Shown here piece after piece: positions 17,429-36,696 of a stretch of 39,845 nt of DNA. The notes under the pieces were generated by a model. The model was not told where the DNA came from, searched no databases, and worked only from the letters and a program-made list of their open reading frames with translations. The DNA lies in NCBI GenBank assembly GCA_026197095.1, contig JAPHTF010000076.1, positions 1-39,845 of the forward strand. Reading direction: 5' to 3'. A program made the translations under genes and the position numbers. The stretch comes from Gammaproteobacteria bacterium. Lineage in GTDB: Bacteria > Pseudomonadota > Gammaproteobacteria > UBA6429 > Thiohalophilaceae. Position 1 is the first letter of the stretch, and every line of letters starts with the position of its first letter.

Positions 17429-20095
17429 TTACTCTGATTCAAGATTAAGCTTAATGATGTTTCTTATTTCAGGTATACACGAGCCACAATTTGTACCCGC
17501 ACGTAGTAACTCACCCACTTGCTCGGGTGTACTGAGCTTACTGGATTTAATTGCATCAACCAGGGTATTTATTCCTACACTAAAGCAAGCACAGACAGCT
17601 TTACCCGCATCTTTTTCACCACTAGCGGGTTTACCGGTAAGCAGACTTTTTCGATCCACATCGTTCAACTTATTATCTTTAAATAATTTTACTAACCAGT
17701 CGCGTTCAGGCAATGAAAAGTCGGGCCCAATAAAAATACAGCTTTCTAATCGGCCATCTTCAACACGAGCGGCACGATAACGATTGACTGCTGAATCAAA
17801 ATATTCAGCCCACTCGACTGCATCGGCATGTTGGCAGAGTAAACTTCGTGCATATTCTGCCCAGTCATCCGGAATTTGGTCGCCGGCAATTTCATAACGC
17901 CATAGCCCCTCACCCCGACTGCATGTCCAGTAGCTGGCATTCAATATATTTAATTTGCGACGTGATAATACGAAGCCATACCATTTGGTAGCATAGGATT
18001 TTACATTTACTGGTGTTGACTTAAATTCTGGCTGCCCCGAAAAAGGATCAACTGTTGCATTAATTAAACTACCCACCACGGCAGAACTGGCAAACTCATC
18101 ATTCCAGTGTATAGGGACAAATACATTACCCTGTTGTTGTGATTCAGAAACATTAACCCGGCAAATAATATTTCCTAATTCACTACTAACTTGTGCTAAC
18201 TCATTATTATTGAGTGAAAGCTTTTTAGAGTCATTGGGATGTAACTCAACAAACGGCTCATATATATGTCCAGATAAACGCGCAGCCTTACCTGTACGCG
18301 TCATAGTATGCCATTGATCACGGATGCGACCGGTATTTAAACGTAATGGATAAGTATCAGATACTTCTTTGGCAGCATAAGAAATGTCAACAGCAATAAA
18401 TTGTGCCTTATGACTACTTGTATAAAAATGTCCATTTGCAAATAATCGTTCCGTACCTTTATTTGCATCAGAAGTTACAGGCCATTGAATGGGTTTTAGA
18501 TTATCGTATTGACTAATGCTGAGGCCTTGTAAACCTGAAATGTCAAAGTCACGCGTGCCTTGATTTTTAAAACCTGAAAGTTTTGCATGCTCATTAAAAA
18601 TTTCTGCCGAATTTTTATATAAAAATGCATCGTTAAACCCCATCCGTTTTGCAACTTCAGAAATTATCCACCAATCAGGTCGAGCTTCACCCGGTGAAGG
18701 TAAAAATGGATGTTGTCGCGATATTCTCCGCTCTGAGCTGGTTACGGTACCATCACGTTCACCCCAGGTCTGTGCAGGTAATAAAACGTTAGCATAGCGT
18801 GTGGTATCTGTATTTTTCATACAATCAGATACCACCACAAATTCACACTTAGCTAACGCATGTTTTACTTTATTCGTGTCAGGCATTGAGACAGCAGGAT
18901 TAGTTGCCATAATCCACACTGCCTTTATTTTTCCATTATCAATAGCACTAAAAAGATCAACTGCTTTCAAACCTTCACGTTCAGCAATATTTGGGGAATC
19001 CCAGAATGTTTTAACAATTTCCCGATGGCCTTCATTTTCTATTGCCATGTGTGCTGCGAGTTGATTAGCTAACCCCCCGACTTCTCGACCACCCATTGCA
19101 TTCGGTTGACCTGTTAGGGAAAAAGGTCCCATACCTTTTCTGCCAATACGGCCGGTATATAAATGACAATTAATGATACTGTTAACACGATCCGTGCCGT
19201 ACGACCATTGATTAATCCCTTGTGAATAAACGGTGACAACACGTTCAGTACGTGCGAATAAACGGTAAAACTTTTCCACAGCATCAATGGCTAAGCCACA
19301 GTGATTGGCTACGATTTCTGATGATGAAGCATGAGACTCTGCAACAGCGAGTGCAGCATCTAAACCTTCAGTAAAATTATCAACAAAAATCTCATTCTTT
19401 TCATTCACATTTTTTAAATGCACTAATAAGCCATTAAATAAAACATGATCCATACCTGACTTTATCGGTAAATAAAGATCTGCAATATCACAGGTTGCGG
19501 TATGACGGGGATCAATGACCACAACCATCATATCGGGATTATCTTGTTTAGCTTTTTTAATACGTTGAAATAAAACCGGATGGCACCATGCAGTATTAGA
19601 ACCGGTTAAGATAACCAATTTTGCACGCTCAAGATCTTCATAATTACAAGGAACAGTATCACTACCAAATGCACGTTTTTGACCTGCAACAGCTGAAGAC
19701 ATACAAAGGCGGGAATTCGTATCAATATTTGCACTGCCAATAAAGCCTTTCATCAGCTTATTCGCAACATAATAATCTTCAGTTAAAAGCTGACCCGAGA
19801 CATAAAATGCAACAGAATCTGCACCATGGTCTTTAATAATTTTCTGAAAACGTTCTGCAACGGTATTAAGTGCCGCATCCCAACTTTGAGATTCCCCATC
19901 TACTACAGGAAATAATAAACGCCCATCAAGGCTTAAGGTATCACCGAGTGCCGCTCCTTTAGAACATAAACGACCAAAATTTGAAGGATGCTCAGGATCT
20001 CCCTTAATAGTCACCTGGCCATCAGCTTCAACTTGCGCTAATACCCCACAACCAACACCACAATATGGACATGTTGTTTTAATAACTTCAGACAT
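17429..20095 (-). CDS. nasA: Assimilatory nitrate reductase, catalytic subunit
   Basis: Reduces nitrate to nitrite in the cytoplasm using a bis-MGD molybdenum cofactor and [4Fe-4S]. The 888-residue protein starts with the cluster motif TCPYCGVGCGV...LCSKGA (about 8-48), continues with molybdopterin oxidoreductase domains (SRLCMSS, GSNTAWCHPV, INQWSYGTDRVN, GQPNAMGGREVGG) and a C-terminal dinucleotide-binding domain (TGRIRDQWHTMTRTGKA). It ends in a BFD-like [2Fe-2S] domain (ACFSVGINTLVDAI...TNCGSCIPEIR, about 828-880), as in the NasA subfamily that takes electrons from a flavoprotein or NAD(P)H partner. It is the last gene of the nrt-nir operon, 47 bp after the DsrC-like gene. Confidence 0.96.
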   Translation of the reverse strand: MSEVIKTTCPYCGVGCGVLAQVEADGQVTIKGDPEHPSNFGRLCSKGAALGDTLSLDGRLLFPVVDGESQSWDAALNTVAERFQKIIKDHGADSVAFYVSGQLLTEDYYVANKLMKGFIGSANIDTNSRLCMSSAVAGQKRAFGSDTVPCNYEDLERAKLVILTGSNTAWCHPVLFQRIKKAKQDNPDMMVVVIDPRHTATCDIADLYLPIKSGMDHVLFNGLLVHLKNVNEKNEIFVDNFTEGLDAALAVAESHASSSEIVANHCGLAIDAVEKFYRLFARTERVVTVYSQGINQWSYGTDRVNSIINCHLYTGRIGRKGMGPFSLTGQPNAMGGREVGGLANQLAAHMAIENEGHREIVKTFWDSPNIAEREGLKAVDLFSAIDNGKIKAVWIMATNPAVSMPDTNKVKHALAKCEFVVVSDCMKNTDTTRYANVLLPAQTWGERDGTVTSSERRISRQHPFLPSPGEARPDWWIISEVAKRMGFNDAFLYKNSAEIFNEHAKLSGFKNQGTRDFDISGLQGLSISQYDNLKPIQWPVTSDANKGTERLFANGHFYTSSHKAQFIAVDISYAAKEVSDTYPLRLNTGRIRDQWHTMTRTGKAARLSGHIYEPFVELHPNDSKKLSLNNNELAQVSSELGNIICRVNVSESQQQGNVFVPIHWNDEFASSAVVGSLINATVDPFSGQPEFKSTPVNVKSYATKWYGFVLSRRKLNILNASYWTCSRGEGLWRYEIAGDQIPDDWAEYARSLLCQHADAVEWAEYFDSAVNRYRAARVEDGRLESCIFIGPDFSLPERDWLVKLFKDNKLNDVDRKSLLTGKPASGEKDAGKAVCACFSVGINTLVDAIKSSKLSTPEQVGELLRAGTNCGSCIPEIRNIIKLNLESE

Positions 20096-20142
20096 TTTAA
20101 TTATTAATCACTTTGACTACTATAGAAGATATATCGGCTACT

Positions 20143-20499
20143 TTAATGCTCACCTTTGGTTCTTAGTAAACCCGCAAGACGGTTACCTTGTTTTTGTGGA
20201 CCACCTTTTGGAAAAATACGATGCAAATAAGAACTGTTACCGCGCTCATCATCCCATGCTAATTTGAAATGCTTAACCATTTTTCTAACTTCACATTGCA
20301 CACCATGCTTATCGTAATAGTCACGTAAAAACTTAATAACGTCTAAATGTTCGTCTGTTAACTCTAGTCCTTCAACTTCAGCTTGCGCATATACAAAACC
20401 ATGACTCCACTCATCACGATTGACAATATAGCCTTCGCCACAGGTTTGAATTTCTTTATCACCAACCATTACGGATTTTATTTGCATATTGGGATACAT
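20143..20499 (-). CDS. DsrC/TusE-family protein lacking the C-terminal cysteines
   Basis: A 118-residue protein with the DsrC fold: MVGDKEIQTCGEGYI, WSHGFVYAQAEVEGLELTDEH, a central RDYYDKHGVQCEVRKMVKHF and the family tail FPKGGPQKQGNRLAGLLRTK. In DsrC the tail carries two redox cysteines (and TusE keeps the last one) for sulfur transfer; here the positions read Gln-Gly-Asn and the tail ends in Glu-His, so neither is present. Two other cysteines lie at non-conserved internal places. A good AAAGGA site precedes ATG 20499, and the gene begins 14 bp after nirD, inside the nitrate operon. A sulfur-relay role is therefore unlikely; a structural or regulatory role with NirBD or NasA is inference. 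Confidence 0.9.
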   Translation of the reverse strand: MYPNMQIKSVMVGDKEIQTCGEGYIVNRDEWSHGFVYAQAEVEGLELTDEHLDVIKFLRDYYDKHGVQCEVRKMVKHFKLAWDDERGNSSYLHRIFPKGGPQKQGNRLAGLLRTKGEH

Positions 20500-20513
20500 A
20501 AAGTTTCCTTTAA

Positions 20514-20852
20514 TTACTTATTAGGACAACCATCTTCAGGAACAAGCGATAACATGATTTTGTTGCCTTCCATTTTAATTGGGAAGCTTGCAGCACAACC
20601 TTCATCAGGTGCGAGAGCTATGCCGTTATCCAGCCCAATTTTCCAGTCATGTAATGGACAAGCAACACGATACCCCATAACGATCCCCTGTGATAACTGG
20701 CCACCTTTGTGTGGACATTTATCACGTAAAGCAAATACTTTGTCATCTGCTGTTCTGAATACTGCAATATCACCTTCTGGAGCTTTTACAACACGTGCAC
20801 CTAATTTCGGAATATCGTTTAATGTACCTACTTCTACCCAGTTGCTCATCAT
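20514..20852 (-). CDS. nirD: Nitrite reductase (NADH) small subunit
   Basis: The Rieske-type partner of NirB. The protein of about 112 residues shows both Rieske motifs, CPHKGG (about 45-50) and CPLHDW (about 64-69), so a [2Fe-2S] cluster looks feasible, whereas several NirD homologues lack these ligands. The reading frame opens at ATG 20861 with ATGs at 20852 and 20849; the 20852 ATG is chosen because the family begins MSNWVEVG-like, and TGGT precedes it at usable spacing. A 111-bp hairpin-forming gap separates it from nirB. Confidence 0.95.
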   Translation of the reverse strand: MMSNWVEVGTLNDIPKLGARVVKAPEGDIAVFRTADDKVFALRDKCPHKGGQLSQGIVMGYRVACPLHDWKIGLDNGIALAPDEGCAASFPIKMEGNKIMLSLVPEDGCPNK

Positions 20853-20880
20853 AATTACCATTTTTTAAAATTTGTATTTA

Positions 20881-20938
20881 AACGCAAAGTTCGCAAAGGC
20901 GCAGAGAACGAAAGGTTTTTCTTAGCGGCCTTTGCGTT
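20881..20938 (-). repeat. AACGCAAAG...CTTTGCGTT hairpin between nirB and nirD
   Basis: AACGCAAAG (20881-20889) and CTTTGCGTT (20930-20938) are perfect inverted ends around GTTCGCAAAGGCGCAGAG-type tandem words. CGCAAAGGCGCAGAG-like elements are a widespread bacterial intergenic repeat. In the nir transcript this would be a stem-loop between nirB and nirD, able to slow 3' exonucleases. Confidence 0.6.
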
Positions 20939-20963
20939 AATTACGTAACCAATATATAACCTT

Positions 20964-23399
20964 TTACCCAATAACTTTCAGCGGTGTGAATTCATGTGCT
21001 TCGCCACCTTTAGCACGTTCTTCCCATGGATCATCTTGCATAAAGGTTTGTGAGAAGTTAAAACGCTCTGCTAACTCTTTACGTTTTTCAGGGTTATCAA
21101 TTAATGCTTCTTTTATATGCGCTAAACCCATCCGTTCTATCCAGGGTGCTGTACGTTCAAGGTAATGTGCTTCTTCACGATAAAGTTGAATATAAGCGGC
21201 ACTGTATTCAAGAACTTCTTCTTCTGTTTTAACATTACATAACAGGTCAGTCGCACGAACTTTAATACCTCCATTACCACCAACATGTATTTCATAACCT
21301 GAATCAACGCAGACAACACCATAGTCTTTAATTGTTGCTTCAGCACAATTTCGAGGACAACCCGATGCGGCCATTTTAAATTTATGCGGCATCCATGAGC
21401 CCCAGCTCATTTTTTCCAGTTTAATACCAAGCCCGGTAGAATCTTGAGTACCAAAACGACACCATTCTTTACCAACACAGGTTTTAACGGTACGTAATGC
21501 TTTACCATAGGCATGGCCAGATACCATACCGGCTTTATTTAAGTCATCCCAAATGGCAGGTAGCTCTTCTTTTTTCAATCCATATAGCCCGATACGCTGT
21601 CCACCTGTTACGTGTACAGTATCAACATTATATTTTTCAGCAGCATCAGCTACTGCACGTAATTCCTGAGGCGTTGTCATACCACCCCACATACGAGGAA
21701 TGACAGAATAAGTACCATCGCCCTGAATGTTTGCATGCGCACGCTCATTAATAAAACGAGACTGACTGTCATCAAGATTAAGTTCTGGGAACTTGCATAC
21801 TAAATAGTAGTTGATGGCTGGACGACATTTACTACAACCATCAGGTGTTTTCCAGGCCATTGCTTCCATAACTGTGTGAATAGATTTATAACCTTGTGCT
21901 CCTATTGCCGCACGAACATCATCGTGAGATTTATCAGTACAACCGCACATCGGTTTTAAATGGGGTGCAGTTGAGTAATCCCCGCCCAAGGTATGAGACA
22001 TAATAGATTCAACAAGCCCTGTACATGAACCACACGAACTTGATGCTTTAGTATGGGCACGCACTTCATCTAATGTAAATATTTTATTAACAGTAATAGC
22101 TTTTACAATCTCACCTTTAGTGACACCATTACATCCACAAATTTCTGTATTGTCGGACATCGCGGCAACACGGTTATCATCACCATGACCCGAGTCACCT
22201 AAATGTGCCTGGCCAAATAACAAGTTTTCACGGAATTCTGAAATATCTGTTTCATCACGCATCAGATCGAAATACCAGGTACCATCAATCGTATCGCCAT
22301 ACATTACTGCGCCTTGAATCTTGTTATCTTTAACAATAATCTTGCGATAAACACCACGCGCTTTATCCTGAAATACGAGTTCATCCGTCGAAGCATCACC
22401 GATAAAATCACCGGCTGAAAATAAATCAATACCGGTTACTTTTAACTTGGTTGATGTCATAGTGCCTTCGTAACGACCAATACCCATCCTGGCTAAATGA
22501 TTGGCACAAACTTTTGCCATTTCAAATAACGGTGCAACTAAGCCGTAGGCAACACCACGGTGTTGTACACATTCACCCACTGAATAAATTGTTGGATCAT
22601 ACGTTTGTAACGTATCGTTAACCACGATACCGCGTTCACAATGAATGCCCGCTTCTTTAGCTAACTTAATATTAGGTTTGATACCAACCGCCATTACCAC
22701 CAGGTCAGCATAAATTTCTGAACCATCTTTGAAACGCACTTTTTCAACACGGTCTTTACCAATGATGGATTCTGTTTGCGCTTCCATTAAAAAATGTAAA
22801 CCACGTTCTTCAAGTGACTCTTTTAGCATCGCCGCGGCAGGCCCGTCCATTTGACGTTCCATCAATTTATCCATTAAATGAACAACGGTAACGCTCATGC
22901 CTTGTTCCATTAAACCGTTTGCAGCTTCAAGACCTAATAAGCCACCGCCGATAACAACAGCATGTTTATGTTTTTTTGCTGCCGCCATCATAGTGTCGAC
23001 ATCTTTGATATCACGGAAAGCTATAACACCTTCAAGGTCGTTGCCCGGAACAGGAATAATGAAAGGATCAGAGCCTGTGGCAATTAATAAACGATCATAA
23101 GGTTCTTCAGTACCATCAGCTGCGATGACTTTTCGGTTCACGCGATCAATTGATGTGACTTCTACACCTTTATGTAACTTAACACCATTATCGACATACC
23201 ATTGCTCATCATTTAGCATGATTTCATCAATGGTTTTATCACCAGCTAAAACAGGTGAAAGCATGATTCTGTTGTAGTTTCCATATGGCTCTGCGCCAAA
23301 TACCGTAATGTCATAAGCAAGAGGGTCTATTTTCAATAATTCTTCGACGGTACGAATACCTGCCATACCATTACCAATTACAACCAGTTTATCTTTCAT
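20964..23399 (-). CDS. nirB: Nitrite reductase (NADH) large subunit
   Basis: Reduces nitrite to ammonium with NADH in the cytoplasm using FAD, Fe-S clusters and siroheme. About 811 residues from ATG 23399. The Rossmann motif VVIGNGMAG opens the FAD domain; a second GGGLLGLEAA lies near residue 150; two BFD-like [2Fe-2S] domains follow (CGCNGVTKGEIV...SSCGSCTG; CGCTDKSHDDV...GCSKCRP). The siroheme/[4Fe-4S] half carries the cysteines of CVGKEWCRFG and ASGCPRNC. Start 23399 is preferred over an in-frame ATG 38 codons upstream because GGAG precedes it by 7 bp and homologues begin at MKDKLVVIG. It is followed by nirD. Confidence 0.97.
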   Translation of the reverse strand: MKDKLVVIGNGMAGIRTVEELLKIDPLAYDITVFGAEPYGNYNRIMLSPVLAGDKTIDEIMLNDEQWYVDNGVKLHKGVEVTSIDRVNRKVIAADGTEEPYDRLLIATGSDPFIIPVPGNDLEGVIAFRDIKDVDTMMAAAKKHKHAVVIGGGLLGLEAANGLMEQGMSVTVVHLMDKLMERQMDGPAAAMLKESLEERGLHFLMEAQTESIIGKDRVEKVRFKDGSEIYADLVVMAVGIKPNIKLAKEAGIHCERGIVVNDTLQTYDPTIYSVGECVQHRGVAYGLVAPLFEMAKVCANHLARMGIGRYEGTMTSTKLKVTGIDLFSAGDFIGDASTDELVFQDKARGVYRKIIVKDNKIQGAVMYGDTIDGTWYFDLMRDETDISEFRENLLFGQAHLGDSGHGDDNRVAAMSDNTEICGCNGVTKGEIVKAITVNKIFTLDEVRAHTKASSSCGSCTGLVESIMSHTLGGDYSTAPHLKPMCGCTDKSHDDVRAAIGAQGYKSIHTVMEAMAWKTPDGCSKCRPAINYYLVCKFPELNLDDSQSRFINERAHANIQGDGTYSVIPRMWGGMTTPQELRAVADAAEKYNVDTVHVTGGQRIGLYGLKKEELPAIWDDLNKAGMVSGHAYGKALRTVKTCVGKEWCRFGTQDSTGLGIKLEKMSWGSWMPHKFKMAASGCPRNCAEATIKDYGVVCVDSGYEIHVGGNGGIKVRATDLLCNVKTEEEVLEYSAAYIQLYREEAHYLERTAPWIERMGLAHIKEALIDNPEKRKELAERFNFSQTFMQDDPWEERAKGGEAHEFTPLKVIG

Positions 23400-23568: not shown

Positions 23569-23606
23569 GCACCAGCATGCACAGTGCTGGTGCACCGATT
23601 TGGTGC
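23569..23606 (-). other. Overlapping alternative hairpins between nrtD and nirB
   Basis: A 309-bp gap (23400-23708) separates nrtD from nirB and holds no supported gene. GCACCAGCA/TGCTGGTGC (23569-23593, 7-nt loop) and GCACC/GGTGC (23592-23606, 5-nt loop) share two bases, so only one can be fully paired at a time. No T-run follows on the minus strand, so they are not a simple terminator. Additional small palindromes (TGCCAT...ATGGCA) lie nearby. They may stabilise the upstream nrt message or control read-through to nirB. Confidence 0.5.
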
Positions 23607-23708
23607 TTTGCTCCGAACTTAAGCAAAACATAATTAGGAGTGCCATCCATGGCAAGATTGCTAATAAGCTTGCAGGTTCCACCTACTCGCATTGGGATCA
23701 AATATTCT

Positions 23709-24512
23709 TTACGCGACCTTTTCCTCAGGGTTTCGCTGACGTTCATAAAGGAATTTTAGCACCGCCGCACGATACTCGTTATATTGTGAATCATTCGCTA
23801 AAGTCACACGATTACGTGGTTTAGGTAAATCAACCTCTAAAATTTCACCAATGGTTGCTGCTGGACCATTAGTCATCATTACGATTCGATCAGATAACAA
23901 TACGGCTTCATCAACATCATGCGTAATCATAATTACGGTGTTGTTTAAACGTTGTTGAATTTCAATCAATGAATCCTGCATATGTGCGCGCGTTAACGCA
24001 TCTAATGCGCCAAAAGGTTCATCCATTAACAACACTTTTGGTTCCATGGCCAATGCACGAGCAATCCCAACGCGCTGCTTCATCCCCCCGGATATCTCGC
24101 TAGGGCGCTTGTGCATTGCATGATCCATGTGAACAAGGTTTAGGTTATGTTCAATCCACTCTTTCATTTCCTCTTTAGATTTTTTACCTTTGAAAACCTG
24201 TTTAACTGCCAGCTCAATATTTTCATACGCTGTTAACCAGGGTAGTAAAGAATGATTCTGAAAAACGACAGCACGATCAGGTCCGGGTTCATTCACTTCT
24301 TTTCCATCGAGTATCACGCCACCTGTTGTCGCCTTATATAAGCCTGCCACAATATTCAGTACAGTTGATTTGCCACAACCCGAATGACCAATTAATGAAA
24401 CAAACTCGCCTTCCTTTATAGAAAGGTTTACACCATCCAATGCTTTAAATGGGCCAGAAGGTGTTGGGAATTCAATTGATACCTGACTAATTTCTAAATG
24501 TTTTTTACTCAT
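23709..24512 (-). CDS. nrtD: Nitrate ABC transporter, ATP-binding protein
   Basis: Energises nitrate (and possibly nitrite or cyanate) import with NrtA and NrtB. About 267 residues: Walker A GHSGCGKST (about 41-49), ABC signature SGGMKQRVGIA, Walker B VLLMDEPFGALD and the H-loop MITHDVDEA. It lacks the C-terminal NrtA-like regulatory domain of NrtC, so it is the NrtD type; no nrtC is present. Start 24512 is chosen because GGAG lies 7 bp upstream and homologues begin MSKKHLEI; a longer frame opens at 24536. It lies 44 bp after nrtB. Confidence 0.93.
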   Translation of the reverse strand: MSKKHLEISQVSIEFPTPSGPFKALDGVNLSIKEGEFVSLIGHSGCGKSTVLNIVAGLYKATTGGVILDGKEVNEPGPDRAVVFQNHSLLPWLTAYENIELAVKQVFKGKKSKEEMKEWIEHNLNLVHMDHAMHKRPSEISGGMKQRVGIARALAMEPKVLLMDEPFGALDALTRAHMQDSLIEIQQRLNNTVIMITHDVDEAVLLSDRIVMMTNGPAATIGEILEVDLPKPRNRVTLANDSQYNEYRAAVLKFLYERQRNPEEKVA

Positions 24513-24556
24513 GACTTTCTCCAAAATACTTTGCATGTTGACTATATTTCAATAAA

Positions 24557-25576
24557 TTAACGTAGTACTGCACTTTTATCCCAGGACACACTACGTTGTA
24601 GCATCAACATAAATTGATCTAATACGTAACCAATTAAACCAATGGTTACGACAGCAACCATGATTCGTGCTAACGAATCAGAGCTACCATTTTGGAATTC
24701 ATCCCAAACAAATTTTCCCAGCCCGGGATTTTGCGCTAACATTTCTGCGGCAATAAGTACCATCCAGCCAATACCAAATGAAACACGTAAACCTGCAAAC
24801 ATCATTGGCACAGATGAAGGCAAAACAATCTTGGTAATATGCGTAAACCAGCTTAAACGAAGTACACGACTCACATTCAATAAATCTTTATCCATTGAAG
24901 AAACACCAACCGTAGTATTAATAATTGTTGGCCATAAACTACATAACGTTACAGTAATGGCTGAATTCACAAATGATTTTGAAAACATCGGATCATCCGT
25001 AATATAAACCGCACTCACAATGATGGTCACTATAGGTAACCAGGCGAGTGGTGATACAGGCTTAAACGTTTGAATTAGTGGGTTTAATGCATTGTATACA
25101 GTAGGACTTAAGCCACAAATGATACCAACAGGTATCGCAATCAATGAGGCGATAATAAAACCCGTCATCACAGTAATAATACTGGTTAATATTTGATCAA
25201 AAAATGTCGCTTTACCTGTATAGGCGCGAACTTTAATAGTCGCTTCAGGATTTGCAGCTAACTTAGCGACATTTCTTTTTTCCTGCCTTTCATAAAATGC
25301 CGCTTCCTTAGTACGTTCCACTTTGTGCTCTTCATAAAGTGCTACAGTTTGTTCCCAAACTTTAGTAGGCCCAGGCACCTGACCTAGTGATGTTTGAATT
25401 TGGGAGGCAACAGCACCCCAAATGGCGAGAAAGATACCAATAGCCATTAGTGGCACGCCAACTTTATTGACTGTTTTCTTAAAAAAACCATCCCAGTTTA
25501 TTTTTTCTGGTTTGGATAACGATAATAATTTAGTCATGAATTTACTTTCTATCATGCTCATTACTCGTGCGTTCAT
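24557..25576 (-). CDS. nrtB: Nitrate ABC transporter, permease
   Basis: A 339-residue BPD-type permease. After a cytoplasmic N-terminus and first transmembrane helix (about 36-52) it carries a charged segment rich in E/K/R (about 75-115), then the typical core with TSIITVMTGFIIASLIAIPVG, FKPVSPLAWLPIV and the EAA-type loop SRVLRLSWFTHITKIVLP that meets the ATPase. A GAGG site precedes the ATG. nrtA upstream is followed by a perfect 15-bp hairpin in the 89-bp gap between them. Confidence 0.93.
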   Translation of the reverse strand: MNARVMSMIESKFMTKLLSLSKPEKINWDGFFKKTVNKVGVPLMAIGIFLAIWGAVASQIQTSLGQVPGPTKVWEQTVALYEEHKVERTKEAAFYERQEKRNVAKLAANPEATIKVRAYTGKATFFDQILTSIITVMTGFIIASLIAIPVGIICGLSPTVYNALNPLIQTFKPVSPLAWLPIVTIIVSAVYITDDPMFSKSFVNSAITVTLCSLWPTIINTTVGVSSMDKDLLNVSRVLRLSWFTHITKIVLPSSVPMMFAGLRVSFGIGWMVLIAAEMLAQNPGLGKFVWDEFQNGSSDSLARIMVAVVTIGLIGYVLDQFMLMLQRSVSWDKSAVLR

Positions 25577-25665: not shown

Positions 25666-27072
25666 TTACATTTTGTCTTTATTTTTTAAACCAATTTTAA
25701 ATTTTTTCAGATATGCATTAGGTTGATTACCGTCATACACAATATTATCGATGAAATGTTTTTGTGGTTTACGAAATCCCGACTCTTTAACTAAATCAGG
25801 GAAATCTTTTGCAGAAACTTTACCTTCAGCAATCAACTCGTTAGCCGCTAGTGCATAGATATCTGGACGGTATACTTTTTTCGCTATATCTTTGTACCAG
25901 CTATCAGGCTTGTATTCTGAAATCTGGCCCCAGCGACGCATTTGTGTTAAGTACCAGATTGCATCAGAGTAATAAGGGTAAGTTGCGTTGTAACGGAAGA
26001 AGACATTGAAATCAGGTACCTGACGCTTATCCCCTTTTTCATATTCAAATGTCCCCGTCATTGAGTTCGCTATAACATCATAGTCCGCCCCCACGTATTG
26101 AGATTTAGATAAAATTTTCACCGCTTCAGGTCGATTCGCATTATTCTTTGCATCTAACCATTGCGCAGCACGGATCATCGCTTTAACAACACGGATGTGA
26201 GTATTCGGGTTTTTATCTGCCCAGGTTTTACTTACGCCAAATACTTTTTCAGGATTGTCTTTCCAAATTTCATAATCCGTTACAACAGGTACACCAATAC
26301 CTTTGAATACTGCTTGTTGATTCCATGGCTCACCTACGCAATAACCATCAATTGTTCCCGCTTCCATCGTTGAAGGCATTTGTGGTGGAGGTGTTACAGA
26401 TAACAACGTGTCTGCTTGTAATGTTCCACTACTGTCACCTTTATGCGGGGCATAGTAGCCCGGGTTAATACCTCCCGCGGCTAACCAATAACGTAATTCA
26501 TAATTATGTGTTGATACAGGAAAAACCATACCCATCTTGAACGGCTTACCTTCTGCTTTATATTTAGCAATAACAGGTTTCAAAGAATCTGCTTTAATAG
26601 GATGAACGGGTTTTCCATCTTTATGTGGAATGTGTTTTTTCATTTCACCCCATACTTTATTAGAAACAGTAATCGCATTACCGTTAAGATCCATACTAAA
26701 TGCAGTAACAATATGAGATTGAGTACCAAAACCAATGGTTGCACCAAGTGGTTGGCCGGCAAGCATATGTGCACCATCGAGCTCACCATCAATTACACGA
26801 TCAAGTAATACTTTCCAGTTTGCTTGAGCTTCTAACGTGACATACAAACCTTCATCTTCAAAAAAACCTTTTTCATATGCGACTGCAAGTGGTGCCATGT
26901 CGGTGAGTTTAATAAAGCCAAACTTAAGTTCTTCTTTTTCAGGTTGACCTACAGCCGCATTGATGGGAGTTGAACCCATAAGACCAAAAGCCAGTGACGC
27001 CGAGAGTCCCAGCGTCATTACTGTAGACTTTAAAAATGTCCGACGACCAAATTGTTTACTAATAGTTTTCAT
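25666..27072 (-). CDS. nrtA: Nitrate ABC transporter, substrate-binding protein (Tat-exported)
   Basis: A periplasmic binding protein of about 468 residues that delivers nitrate to NrtBD. The N-terminus has a twin-arginine signal, FGRRTFLKS, followed by a hydrophobic stretch to STPINA. The mature part shows the NrtA/CmpA features [42 protein letters not shown] and [13 protein letters not shown]. The frame is open upstream to 27240, but that stretch contains the sigma-54 promoter and leader RNA, so ATG 27072 is the start; the promoter's predicted start point (about 27196) leaves no upstream ATG. It is the first gene of the operon and is controlled by the antiterminator leader. Confidence 0.95.
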
Positions 27073-27099: not shown

Positions 27100-27148
27100 A
27101 AAAAAAAACGCCCACACTCCAGACAGATCTTCTCTGGGATGTGGACGC
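27100..27148 (-). terminator. Leader terminator of the nrt-nir-nas operon
   Basis: On the minus strand GCGTCCACA (27148-27140) pairs with TGTGGGCGT (27116-27108), with two G-U pairs; an inner CCAGA/TCTGG helix extends it, and a run of nine T follows immediately (27108-27100). It lies about 28 bp before the nrtA ATG. Its 5' arm overlaps hairpin P2 of the antiterminator, so the two cannot coexist. Confidence 0.85.
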
Positions 27149-27182
27149 CTTTGTCCTATGTTTATTGCCCGCCGTTGGACAA
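27143..27182 (-). promoter_or_regulatory. ANTAR (NasT/NasR-type) two-hairpin antiterminator target in the nrtA leader
   Basis: Minus strand: P1 is TTGTCC-AACGGC-GGGCAA (27182-27165, 6-bp stem with one G-U, hexaloop AACGGC). After an 8-nt linker comes P2, GGAC-AAAGGC-GTCC (27156-27143, 4-bp stem, hexaloop AAAGGC). Both loops have A at position 1 and G at position 4, the known signature of ANTAR-bound RNA. The 3' side of P2 is shared with the 5' arm of the terminator. NasT, an ANTAR protein, is encoded 1 kb upstream. Confidence 0.88.
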
Positions 27183-27206
27183 CTAGAAAATTACTATAGT
27201 TACTAG

Positions 27207-27222
27207 AGCAAAGTGTGTGCCA
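27207..27222 (-). promoter_or_regulatory. Sigma-54 promoter of nrtA
   Basis: TGGCACACACTTTGCT on the minus strand: GG and GC at the required 10-bp separation, with an intact TGGCAC...TTGC consensus. Predicted start of transcription is near 27196, giving a leader of about 124 nt that begins 14 nt before hairpin P1. No complete NtrC palindrome is seen upstream, only half-sites such as GTGCA at 27307-27311. Confidence 0.88.
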
Positions 27223-27356: not shown

Positions 27357-27773
27357 TTATGCAGCCGCTTTTTTAGCCGCTTCTTTCATAACGGTTGATA
27401 GCACAATGTATGCAGTAGTCCAGGCTTCTTTAACATCATCTGTAAAGTCATCCCCCAACCCCTGCCCTAATGTCCACAATAGTGCGCTGGCGACAGTGTC
27501 GTAATCTTTATCTTTTACACCATAACCAACATGACGAGCGCCTGATGCTTGAGCCGCTGGAATTATCACTTCAAGATGCTCCAGACTTTTAACAACAGTA
27601 TCGAGCATCGTCATAAGTTTTTTACCTTGCTCTTTAAGATCACCTTTAAATAAAGGCTTAAGGGATGGATCTAATTCAAACAATTTCCCATAAAAAAGTT
27701 CTGCAGCGGTATCCGCAATTGGTAAAATTTTATCCCACGTTACGCCAATCAAACCTATTTGTTTTGGTGTCAT
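27357..27773 (-). CDS. Single-domain bacterial globin
   Basis: A 138-residue haemoglobin-like protein related to the globin domain of flavohaemoproteins and Vitreoscilla-type haemoglobin. Proximal His81 lies in SGARHVGYGV, Phe42 matches CD1 in PLFKGD, and Gln49 is the likely distal E7 residue; the Y/W content of helix H (AWTTAYIV) also fits. No FAD/NAD reductase domain is attached. Family members bind O2 and NO; in this setting it may detoxify NO or nitrite by-products, which is inference. AGGAG lies 8 bp before the ATG. It reads in the same direction as, and lies between, nasT and nrtA, and has a long upstream region containing a second leader-like structure. Confidence 0.9.
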   Translation of the reverse strand: MTPKQIGLIGVTWDKILPIADTAAELFYGKLFELDPSLKPLFKGDLKEQGKKLMTMLDTVVKSLEHLEVIIPAAQASGARHVGYGVKDKDYDTVASALLWTLGQGLGDDFTDDVKEAWTTAYIVLSTVMKEAAKKAAA

Positions 27774-27981: not shown

Positions 27982-28031
27982 AAAAAAAGCGCCTGCCTAT
28001 AACCAGGGTTACCCTTGGTATAAGCAGGCGC
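27982..28031 (-). terminator. Strong intrinsic terminator between nasT and the globin gene
   Basis: Minus strand: GCGCCTGC (28031-28024) pairs with GCAGGCGC (27996-27989). An inner region extends the stem (TATA, CCA and GGG pairs with single-base bulges), and seven T follow (27988-27982). It ends nasT transcription and, by overlap with an adjacent hexaloop hairpin, may be conditional. About 209 bp remain to the globin start. Confidence 0.85.
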
Positions 28032-28067
28032 CTTTGCCATAATAGTTGAAAATCATCTTCGATTTTC
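28027..28067 (-). promoter_or_regulatory. Second, less canonical ANTAR-type two-hairpin leader upstream of the globin gene
   Basis: Minus strand: P1 is GAAAATC-GAAGAT-GATTTTC (28067-28048, perfect 7-bp stem, hexaloop GAAGAT). After a 9-nt linker comes P2, GGC-AAAGGC-GCC (28038-28027, 3-bp stem), whose loop is identical to P2 of the nrtA leader. P2 again shares bases with the 5' arm of the adjacent terminator. The P1 loop has G, not A, at position 1 and the P2 stem is short, so binding is less certain. Confidence 0.55.
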
Positions 28068-28733: not shown

Positions 28734-28749
28734 AGCAAAAACAATGCCA
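28734..28749 (-). promoter_or_regulatory. Sigma-54 promoter of nasT
   Basis: TGGCATTGTTTTTGCT on the minus strand, with GG-N10-GC spacing. Predicted start near 28723, 31 nt before the nasT ATG. A perfect 17-bp NtrC-type palindrome is centred at about -167. Confidence 0.82.
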
Positions 28750-28881: not shown

Positions 28882-28898
28882 TGCACATTAACTGTGCA
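28882..28898. promoter_or_regulatory. NtrC-type binding site upstream of nasT
   Basis: TGCACATTAACTGTGCA has the TGCAC-N7-GTGCA form and 17-bp length of NtrC enhancer sites; the flanking A/T extends the palindrome to 19 bp. It lies about 167 bp before the predicted nasT transcript start, in the intergenic space downstream of the TRIC-type gene. Confidence 0.75.
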
Positions 28899-33231: not shown

Positions 33232-33289
33232 TGCACCAAAATGGCCAATGTAAGTGCACTTTAATATATAACTGCACTTCGTTTGTGCA
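33232..33289 (+). promoter_or_regulatory. NtrC-type enhancer region of narK (two sites)
   Basis: 33273-33289 reads TGCACTTCGTTTGTGCA, a TGCAC-N7-GTGCA 17-mer. 33232-33248, TGCACCAAAATGGCCAA, matches well in the left half and weakly in the right half. Their centres lie near -97 and -138 relative to the predicted sigma-54 start, the usual enhancer distance. Confidence 0.72.
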
Positions 33290-33351
33290 TTTCAAACTCT
33301 TAACATCCTTAAATCACAACTTTCTCTTTATAAAACAAATACTTAAAGTAT

Positions 33352-33367
33352 TGGCATATCCTTTGCT
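33352..33367 (+). promoter_or_regulatory. Sigma-54 promoter of narK
   Basis: TGGCATATCCTTTGCT, with GG-N10-GC spacing. Predicted start near 33378, 34 nt before the narK ATG; no terminator or hexaloop leader lies between, unlike nrtA. Confidence 0.85.
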
Positions 33368-33411
33368 GTCCTGTCTCAGAAGAATTTTAAACATTTTGGA
33401 GTGACAAAGGT

Positions 33412-34887
33412 ATGTCGGTTGATACAAGTAAGCTAAATCTATTCTCATTTAGTGGAAAAATGCGCATTCTGCATTTGAGCTGGATTGCTTTTTTTATCAG
33501 CTTTTTTGTCTGGTTCAACCATGCCCCACTATTAGGCATGATGCGTGAATCATTAGGTCTAAGTGACCAACAGATAAAAACCTTATTAATCCTTAATGTC
33601 GCTTTAACCATCCCCGCACGGATTATTGTTGGTATGTTGGTAGATGCCTTTGGGCCTCGCCGCATATATTCGATGTTGCTATTTGTTTCCAGTTTTCTTT
33701 GCTTTGGCTTTGCTATGGCAGACGATTTTGAACAACTCGCCTTAATGCGATTTTTGCTTGGTTTTGTGGGTGCGGGTTTTGTTATTGGTATTCGTATGAT
33801 TGGTGAGTGGTTCCCGGCTAAACAAACCGGACTTGCGCAAGGCATCTACGGTGGCTGGGGTAACTTTGGTTCTGCCGGTGCTGCTGTGATTTTACCGACA
33901 GTTGCGCTTATGTATGGCGGTGATGATGGTTGGCGCTGGGCTGTCGGTACTACAGGTGTTATTTCTCTTGTTTACTCGGCAATTTACTTTTTCAGTGTCA
34001 GTGATACTCCCAAAGGTTCAACCTACTTTAAACCAAAGAAAAATGGTGCATTAGAAATCAGCAGCACATTTGATTTCTTTTTATATTTAATCATGAATAT
34101 TCCCTTATTTGCTGCATTAGCTGTATTAACCTGGAAACTCAGCCCTGCTAATTTAGGTATGTTAAGTTCAGGTGTGACCATGATGATTTATATCATCCTG
34201 GGCAGCTTGTATGCATTCCAGACAATTCGTATTTATCAAATTAATAAACATGTTTTCACTGAAACTATCCCCGAGATTGATCGTTATAAATTTAAACAAG
34301 TTGCATTACTTGATCTCTCATACATGGTGACATTTGGATCAGAGCTCGCCGTTGTTTCAATTTTACCATTATTCTTTATGGACACTTTTCATCTATCCGC
34401 AATTCAGGCTGGTTTAGTTGCTTCTGTTTTTGCAGGGCTAAATTTAATCATGCGCCCGGCAGGTGGCTGGATTAGTGATAAGTATGGACGTAAATCTTCA
34501 CTTGCATTACTCATGTTGGGAACGGGCATCGGTTATTACCTTTTAAGCTTAATTACGAGCGAATGGAGTATTTCTCTGGCTGTTGCAGTTGTGATATTTA
34601 GTTCACTATTTGTGAATGCTGGCAATGGCGCCGTGTTTGCTATCGTACCTTTGGTTAAACGTCGTATGACTGGACAAATTGCAGGCATGGCAGGTGCTTA
34701 CGGTAATGTTGGTGCAGTAACATTCTTAACAGTACTCTCATTTGTCGCTACCGATATCTTCTTTATGGTGATAGCAGCCTTTGCCGTTATTGTATTTATC
34801 TTAATTGTATTATTTCTTGAAAATCCCAAAGATCAAATGGCTGAGGTGTTACCTGATGGTACAGTTCAAATGATTGAAGTAGACTAA
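33412..34887 (+). CDS. Nitrate/nitrite transporter of the MFS NNP family
   Basis: A 491-residue membrane protein with about 12 transmembrane helices. NNP features are visible: FSFSGKMRILHLSWIAFFISFFVWFNHAPL at the start, the nitrate-signature glycine-rich helix GIYGGWGNFGSAGAA (about 144-158), and a second one, GMAGAYGNVGAVTFL (about 424-438), plus SDKYGRKSS. There is a central hydrophilic linker (about 195-215 and 265-290). It belongs with nasA/narK-type uptake proteins; assimilatory use is suggested by its sigma-54/NtrC control and the linked nrt-nir-nas operon. GGAG stands 14 bp before the ATG and AAAGG closer. It is followed by the phosphatase/kinase gene. Confidence 0.93.
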   Translation: MSVDTSKLNLFSFSGKMRILHLSWIAFFISFFVWFNHAPLLGMMRESLGLSDQQIKTLLILNVALTIPARIIVGMLVDAFGPRRIYSMLLFVSSFLCFGFAMADDFEQLALMRFLLGFVGAGFVIGIRMIGEWFPAKQTGLAQGIYGGWGNFGSAGAAVILPTVALMYGGDDGWRWAVGTTGVISLVYSAIYFFSVSDTPKGSTYFKPKKNGALEISSTFDFFLYLIMNIPLFAALAVLTWKLSPANLGMLSSGVTMMIYIILGSLYAFQTIRIYQINKHVFTETIPEIDRYKFKQVALLDLSYMVTFGSELAVVSILPLFFMDTFHLSAIQAGLVASVFAGLNLIMRPAGGWISDKYGRKSSLALLMLGTGIGYYLLSLITSEWSISLAVAVVIFSSLFVNAGNGAVFAIVPLVKRRMTGQIAGMAGAYGNVGAVTFLTVLSFVATDIFFMVIAAFAVIVFILIVLFLENPKDQMAEVLPDGTVQMIEVD

Positions 34888-34933
34888 TTCATATATAAAA
34901 ATATAATCGAATTTTGATTATTGCTAACACAGT

Positions 34934-34972
34934 AAAGACAATGCCGTTATACTTTAACGACATTGTCTTTTC
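34934..34972 (+). terminator. Hairpin between narK and the phosphatase/kinase gene
   Basis: AAAGACAATG (34934-34943) and CATTGTCTTT (34961-34970) with an inner CGTTA/TAACG helix and one C-A mismatch, loop TACTT, then TC. The 3' T-run is short (four T counting the stem end), so termination is likely partial and the downstream gene may be expressed by read-through. Confidence 0.7.
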
Positions 34973-34986
34973 AAAAAAGCGAACAA

Positions 34987-36696
34987 ATGCCAACATCATT
35001 AGAAATCAAGCATGCTCATTACAGTATTGCAGGAATTAAAGCGCAAAACGAAGACTCCTGTGGAGTTGTTATACCTGATGAACCTTTATTAAAAACTAAA
35101 GGTATCGCTGTTGTTATTGCAGATGGTATGAGTGCGAGCGATGATGGAAAGCTTGCTTCAGAAAGCTGTGTTAAGAGTTTTTTAAGTGACTACTTTAGTA
35201 CACCGGAAACATGGTCAGTTAAAAGTTCTGGTCAAAAAATATTAGCGGCCTCAAACCGATGGCTACATGGACAGGGGCAACGTAAATACCAGAGCCACCA
35301 GGGCATGGTCACAACATTAAGTGCGTTAGTTTTTAAATCAAATACAGCCTATATATTCCATGTAGGAGATACACGAATATATCGCTTACGTAACAACGAT
35401 CTTGAACAATTAACTAATGATCATCGCTTTACTGTAAGTAAAGAAAAAAGTTATTTATCCAGGGCGCTGGGGATAGATCTTCATGTAGATATTGATTATA
35501 AAAAATTAGCGGTAGAAACCGGTGATATATATATCCAGCTGACTGATGGTGTATATGACTTTATCACTGACCAGAAAATTAAAGATCTTGTTTCAGATAA
35601 TAAAGCCAGCCTGGAAACTGCAAGTCAGGCCATTGTTGAAATGGCGGTAAATAATAAAAGTGATGATAATCTAACCTGCCAGCTGGTAAAAGTCACACGG
35701 TTACCAAAAGAAAATGAAAATGAGTTCTACGATAAACTCACAGAGCTCCCCTTCCCGCCAACGTTAGAACCTGGCTTAATACTTGATGGCTATAAAGTCA
35801 TACGACATTTGTTTTCAAATAAACGCACCGAAGTCTATTTAGTTCAAGATACTGAAACAAATGAAAATATCGTCATGAAGGCACCCTCTGTAAACTATCA
35901 GGATGATCCGGAATACATTAACCAGTTTTTACATGAGGAATGGGCCGGTCGCAGAATCAATAACCCGCATGTATTAAAAATATTAGAAACAACGCGTAAA
36001 CGGACGGCCTTATATTATATTACTGAGTACATCGAGGGTTGCTCTTTAAGACAGTGGCTTGATGATAATCCTCGTCCTTCATTAAACCAGGTTCGCACAT
36101 TTAGTAAACAAATTGAACGCGGTTTACGTGCATTTCATCGGCTCGAAATGATCCATCAGGATTTAAAACCTGAAAATATTTTAATTGATAAGAACGAAAC
36201 ATTAAAAATTATAGACTTTGGTTCTGCTAAAATAGCGGGAATTGAAGAAATTTACCTGCCCATTGAAGTCAACAATATACTGGGTACGATTGATTACACG
36301 GCTCCTGAATACCATATTGGTGATTCAGGCAGTAATCGTTCTGACATCTATTCACTAGGTGTCATTGTTTATGAAATGCTTACCGGTCACCTTCCATATG
36401 GTAAGGATATGACCGCAAGAAATATTAAGCGCGCAAGATACATCTCACTCAAACGCTATAATCCTGAAATACCTGTCTGGGTTGACAAAGCTATTGAAAA
36501 AGCAGTACATATTAATCCAGAAAATCGTTTCAGTATTTTATCTGAATTCACCTATGCACTAAACAAACCTGATTCTTCACTAGTCAATTCTGATTATGTT
36601 CCGTTAATAAAACGTGATCCTGTTCGAAGTTGGCAAATTATTAGCTTTATACTTTTATTAATTAATATAATATTGATTTATAAATTAAATATATAA
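34987..36696 (+). CDS. Membrane-anchored PP2C phosphatase / Ser-Thr kinase fusion
   Basis: A 569-residue protein. Residues about 8-235 are a PP2C phosphatase with its metal motifs (QNEDSCGV, VIADGMSAS, HVGDTRIYRL, LTDGVYDFI, KSDDNLTC). Residues about 255-535 are a Hanks-type kinase: lysine in NIVMKAPS, HQDLKPENILID catalytic loop, KIIDFGSAK (DFG) and GTIDYTAPEY. The glycine loop (GYKVIRHLFSNKRTEVYLV) lacks the usual GxGxxG. A C-terminal transmembrane helix (WQIISFILLLINIILIYKL) anchors it. The ATG 34987 is chosen over a TTG 24 bp upstream that lies in the terminator hairpin. It follows narK by about 100 bp; homologues sit beside nitrate assimilation genes in Pseudomonas. Target unknown. Confidence 0.92.
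   Translation: MPTSLEIKHAHYSIAGIKAQNEDSCGVVIPDEPLLKTKGIAVVIADGMSASDDGKLASESCVKSFLSDYFSTPETWSVKSSGQKILAASNRWLHGQGQRKYQSHQGMVTTLSALVFKSNTAYIFHVGDTRIYRLRNNDLEQLTNDHRFTVSKEKSYLSRALGIDLHVDIDYKKLAVETGDIYIQLTDGVYDFITDQKIKDLVSDNKASLETASQAIVEMAVNNKSDDNLTCQLVKVTRLPKENENEFYDKLTELPFPPTLEPGLILDGYKVIRHLFSNKRTEVYLVQDTETNENIVMKAPSVNYQDDPEYINQFLHEEWAGRRINNPHVLKILETTRKRTALYYITEYIEGCSLRQWLDDNPRPSLNQVRTFSKQIERGLRAFHRLEMIHQDLKPENILIDKNETLKIIDFGSAKIAGIEEIYLPIEVNNILGTIDYTAPEYHIGDSGSNRSDIYSLGVIVYEMLTGHLPYGKDMTARNIKRARYISLKRYNPEIPVWVDKAIEKAVHINPENRFSILSEFTYALNKPDSSLVNSDYVPLIKRDPVRSWQIISFILLLINIILIYKLNI

Follow-up and report, generated by a model that had tools for sequence, protein, structure and literature searches.

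The window, that is, the whole stretch of 39,845 nucleotides that was analysed, carries nitrate assimilation genes on its minus strand in the order nrtA-nrtB-nrtD-nirB-nirD-dsrC/tusE-like-nasA, with a second promoter ahead of nirB. The nitrate-binding protein gene nrtA (25666-27072) encodes a twin-arginine-like N-terminus (GRRTFLK). It is followed by nrtB and nrtD (23709-25576; nrtD passes the ntrCD cut-off and nrtB falls short of its ntrB cut-off), and then by nirB, nirD, the dsrC/tusE-like gene and nasA (17429-23399). About 1 kb upstream lies nasT (28692-28114, minus strand), whose receiver-ANTAR product is the one ANTAR protein that the genome was found to encode; between nasT and nrtA stands a single-domain globin gene (27357-27773, minus strand). 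A NarK-family transporter gene with no attenuator is located on the plus strand (33412-34887). As side observations, the DsrC/TusE-like gene (20143-20499, minus strand) sits between nirD and nasA inside the nitrate assimilation operon, and a protein kinase/PP2C gene is found downstream of the transporter gene (both, with the promoter site of the latter, within 33273-36696, plus strand).

Direct reading of the minus-strand nrtA leader gives, in this order, TTGGCACACACTTTGCT, GUUGUCC-AACGGC-GGGCAAU, a short linker of 7 nt, GGAC-AAAGGC-GUCC, a G+C-rich hairpin and T9. The sigma-54 -24/-12 promoter TGGCACACACTTTGCT (27222-27207) has the exact GG-N10-GC consensus. The ANTAR hairpins P1 (27183-27164, hexaloop AACGGC at 27176-27171) and P2 (27156-27143, hexaloop AAAGGC at 27152-27147) both present A1 and G4 in their loops. 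The intrinsic terminator (27149-27100; hairpin 27149-27107, -24.9 kcal/mol; T9 at 27108-27100) takes in P2's 3' arm together with the final bases of its loop, and hence P2 and the terminator are mutually exclusive. In RNA folding, P1 and the terminator fold together at -36.4 kcal/mol, and enforcing P2 breaks the base of the terminator at a cost of ~12 kcal/mol. This penalty suggests that termination is the default and that P2 would form only with a protein bound to it. The whole leader had a fold z of -4.2, and 0 of 200 shuffles folded equally well.

The pattern TGGCAY-N5-TTGCW occurred four times in the window vs 0.035 expected from mononucleotide shuffles. These four near-exact -24/-12 sites are far from chance, and they precede nasT (TGGCATTGTTTTTGCT, -24/-12-like, 28734-28749, minus strand), nrtA, nirB (TGGCACGCATGTTGCT, an exact site in the nrtD-nirB gap, 23479-23464, minus strand) and the NarK-family transporter gene (TGGCATATCCTTTGCT, 33352-33367, plus strand). 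Moreover, of all NtrC-like dyads in the 40-kb window, the five that score best fall within ~150 bp upstream of these four sites. Dyads were located before nasT (TGCACAGTTAATGTGCA, 28882-28898, minus strand), before nirB (two overlapping, 11/12 each, 23578-23607, minus strand) and before the transporter gene (11/12, 33273-33289, plus strand). The two dyads upstream of nrtA lie 30 bp apart on the minus strand (27324-27308, 10/12; 27354-27338, 9/12) and each is weak alone, those ahead of nirB and of the transporter gene being clearer. The genome encodes one RpoN and one NtrC above its cut-off. In most of 19 loci a -24/-12 site stands 27-72 nt ahead of the nasT start, together with NtrC-like dyads, often two at a spacing of ~31 bp.

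The second promoter changes what the leader can be expected to control. The short nirB leader was found to be without ANTAR hairpins and without a terminator; thus nirB-nirD-dsrC-nasA can be transcribed from its own promoter under nitrogen limitation, bypassing the attenuator. Direct gating by this element applies to nrtABD, and nirBD-nasA is not under its control alone. The initial annotation had placed the unit ahead of an nrtABD-nirBD-nasA operon; the unit does not govern that operon as a whole, nirBD-nasA having its own NtrC/sigma-54 promoter.

Conservation was examined in 15 leaders picked solely by their position upstream of nrtA, comprising that of the window and 14 from relatives. A P2 with A1/G4 running into a terminator was present in all 15, vs 0.27 expected from dinucleotide shuffles, and the full unit of P1, P2 and terminator in 12 of them, vs 0.02 expected; pure-chance hairpins were rejected on the basis of the shuffles. 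Sites resembling -24/-12 promoters are also found upstream of nrtA in most relatives, and where the leader is compact the site ends ~17-30 nt ahead of P1, so that a sigma-54 start would include both hairpins. In an alignment of 14 units, paired cells amounted to 95.6% and cells with both sides changed to 31 vs 9.3 in shuffles, a count that is partly circular because the units had been picked out on the strength of their hairpins, which does not apply to the positional test. The covariance model R1, built from 14 units, matched the nrtA leader at 46.2 bits over 27184-27142, this leader being itself among the training sequences. A further R1 match at 34597 (12 bits), inside the NarK-family gene, was dismissed.

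Taken from the sequence, the segment is very probably an ANTAR (NasT-type) attenuator behind an NtrC/sigma-54 promoter, with a predicted start site and predicted binding of NasT and NtrC. The promoter, the two A1/G4 hexaloop hairpins and the terminator sharing the second hairpin, as initially annotated, are borne out by sequence, folding, shuffles and the 15 homologous leaders. Folding, a check named there, and a covariance model gave the same picture, with the R1 score coming from a training member and the Rfam narK and P11 matches being weak. The proposal of NtrC/sigma-54 initiation combined with an ANTAR attenuator likewise agrees with nasT 1 kb upstream, the encoded RpoN and NtrC, the NtrC-like dyads and conservation in relatives.

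A second ANTAR-like attenuator occupies the nasT-globin gap (27982-28067, minus strand), with a P1-like hairpin, P2 and terminator. Its P1-like hairpin has 7 bp (28067-28048) and the loop GAAGAT, with G at position 1 and G4, and its P2 (28038-28027, loop AAAGGC) runs into a strong terminator from 28031 with a T-run. A1/G4 is thus found in the P2 loop and not in both hexaloops. R1, for which this element lies outside the training set, gave its second best match in the window here (28068-28025, 17.4 bits, E 0.008), and the region 28120-27970 had a fold z of -6.1. We consider it a probable, weaker attenuator. ANTAR-type units directly after nasT were also found in seven related loci (L034, L036, L037, L040, L048, L049 and L050), with weak matches in L048 and L050.

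The design of the nrtA leader is of a known kind, a standard ANTAR leader (PMC3369931, PMC5424462), as the initial annotation had recognised in pointing to NasR/NasT systems. The Klebsiella nasFEDCBA leader controlled by NasR (PMC7496416, PMC5424462) combines the same Ntr promoter and ANTAR attenuator with A1/G4 hexaloops, but NasR has its own nitrate-sensing NIT domain, whereas NasT here is a receiver-ANTAR protein without NIT. The Enterococcus EutV antiterminator (PMC3369931) acts on the same two A1/G4 hexaloop hairpins, the second overlapping the terminator, with linkers of 5-12 nt in the eut genes of E. faecalis compared with 7 nt here; it differs in its ethanolamine signal, in EutV phosphorylation and in the genes controlled. 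The nasABGHC system of Paracoccus denitrificans with NasS-NasT (PMC3795266, PMC5424462) and the nasST systems of Azotobacter and Pseudomonas share the ANTAR-domain NasT, the leader hairpins, NtrC control of nasT and a nitrate assimilation target. In these systems NasS is present and confers the nitrate response, whereas here NasS was not found; a further difference is that the genes for the reductases lie behind a separate NtrC/sigma-54 promoter in this genome.

NasT is regarded as one of the two halves of a nitrate sensor. In P. denitrificans it is held inactive by NasS, from which nitrate or nitrite releases it (PMC3795266), and in a B. japonicum nasS mutant expression was high with and without nitrate, the nitrate response being lost (PMC4724949). 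A search of our genome with NMT1_2 gave a single protein, NrtA, and no NasS, while the same search picks up NasS at ~300 bits in relatives. A NasR-type NIT-ANTAR fusion is absent as well, the only ANTAR protein of the genome being of the receiver-ANTAR type. The initial annotation had assumed that nitrate or nitrite would set elongation through NasT; since NasS, the source of the nitrate response of NasT, was not found, nitrate control of elongation is unsupported in this genome. With 201 contigs and a completeness of 98.5%, the draft leaves a small chance that a gene was missed, but single-contig genomes show the same state.

Elsewhere in the class, too, NasT repeatedly occurs without NasS, single-contig genomes included. 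Among 91 genomes with NasT-like proteins, 27 have no strong candidate other than an exported-type NrtA, and in 8 there is no NasS candidate at all, where NrtA and NasS were told apart by hit-span classes, a proxy for which ANTAR coordinates of family genomes were entered rounded and N-termini were checked in ~17 loci. The single-contig genomes G073 and G147 have one strong NMT1_2 protein each, that of G073 with a signal-peptide-like start. The NasT tree gave no separate NasS-less clade, and many of its forks are open. Named genomes scanned with NasT gave no more than a partial match (33%, confined to the receiver part), in a Clostridiales bin, and no NasT relative was found in the viral contigs searched.

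According to the circuit we propose, nitrogen limitation would let phosphorylated NtrC and sigma-54 RNA polymerase start transcription ~12 nt before P1, and every transcript would then carry P1, P2 and the terminator. If NasT is not active, the terminator would form and RNA polymerase would halt ahead of nrtA. A NasT dimer bound to P1 and P2 would withhold the 3' arm of P2 from the terminator, and polymerase would enter nrtABD. NtrC/sigma-54 would also drive nasT, nirBD-nasA and the NarK transporter gene together with nrtABD, giving a feed-forward arrangement in which NasT is produced on starvation and then gives access to nrtABD and, via the second attenuator, probably to the globin gene. This nitrogen-status feed-forward is the likeliest working of the circuit, the chief competing idea for its final step being a nitrate sensor that has taken the place of NasS. 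That nitrogen status is the only input of NasT, through NtrC-driven nasT expression, we hold to be an evenly balanced proposition. The attenuator behind an NtrC/sigma-54 promoter is a known design; the NasS-less circuit is the new part.

It is possible, at somewhat less than an even chance, that NasT still responds to nitrate through another sensor, such as a cytoplasmic NrtA precursor, a NIT hybrid histidine kinase or the globin reporting nitrite or NO. NasT without NasS should be constitutive, which would make the attenuator look redundant and thus argues for an unseen sensor. NIT-domain proteins are encoded in the genome, including a hybrid histidine kinase and none with ANTAR, and these could sense nitrate. 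The globin gene occupies the place of nasS behind nasT, but in the closest relative with nasT-nrtA (G002) no globin gene stands between them. The receiver of NasT offers evidence on both sides: the acceptor-position Asp is kept in the NasT of the window and in the four NasT proteins with NasS, but is lost in several NasS-less relatives, a pattern across aligned proteins that is not independent by descent, and in the aligned NasT proteins another residue, mostly Val, stands where receivers usually have a lysine. Moreover, NrtA is ~80% identical with or without NasS, so it shows no sign of a new role.

Classical NasS-NasT control, with nitrate setting elongation and NasS missed through an assembly gap or strong divergence, appears unlikely. 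The fragmented draft leaves room for it, and NasS, an NrtA relative without an export signal, is directly behind nasT in relatives G004, G021 and G036, as is a CmpA/NrtA-family gene in named plasmids of Phyllobacterium and Methylocystis. In our genome, however, nasT lies mid-contig with the globin gene as its neighbour, and the NMT1_2 search that detects NasS in relatives returns NrtA only, as it returns one strong protein in each of the two single-contig genomes. It is highly improbable that the leader is nothing more than an intrinsic terminator, or a structure close to the promoter, whose hexaloops arose by chance: leader terminators are common to many operons and hexaloop hairpins are short, but the full unit recurs in the positional leaders far beyond shuffled expectation with A1/G4 in both loops, nasT adjoins, and Rfam narK and P11 match the leader.

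Returning to the feed-forward reading, its bearing extends beyond this genome. In NasS-less genomes, either nitrogen status drives antitermination or there is a nitrate sensor that has escaped notice. Here and in many related genomes, we would give an even chance to NasT acting as a sensorless feed-forward threshold for uptake and globin genes, or else with a replacement of NasS yet to be recognised.

The leader also bears on motifs that are catalogued in Rfam as an RNA motif or sRNA. At the gathering threshold, the nrtA leader and the leaders of eight related loci were unmatched in Rfam. Below gathering score, narK (RF03032) matched the nrtA leader at 36.5 bits (E ~1e-5) and P11 (RF00625) at 27.2 bits. 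The narK consensus contains GGCaCA-N4-UUGCU, a CCAACGGCGG hairpin with the hexaloop AACGGC, and GACAAAGACGUC, a GAC-AAAGAC-GUC hairpin; in our own reading these would correspond to the -24/-12 promoter, P1 and P2, respectively. By the same reading, both narK and P11 may be sigma-54 plus ANTAR leaders, and the match of the nrtA leader suggests this for the narK motif in particular. P11 likewise holds a P2-like GGACAAAGGCGUCC.

Globin genes are associated with ANTAR leaders elsewhere, too. The Bradyrhizobium narK-bjgb-flp-nasC operon (PMC4724949) similarly has a globin gene in a NasT-controlled nitrate-assimilation regulon; there NasS is present, whereas in the window the interval from nasT to the globin gene itself holds a weak ANTAR-like attenuator. 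In relatives G004, G012 and G026 the globin gene is part of an ANTAR-led cluster, behind a NirB-like flavoprotein gene, and the clusters read in G004 and G026 also hold a multihaem cytochrome and a Tll0287-like protein. By analogy, these clusters recall the NasT-controlled narK-bjgb-flp-nasC (PMC4724949). ANTAR-led genes for a NirB-like flavoprotein, a multihaem cytochrome c, a Tll0287-like protein and a globin were seen at L034 9560-15024 and L041 4688-9183, and the L034 cluster additionally holds a Cache-domain protein.
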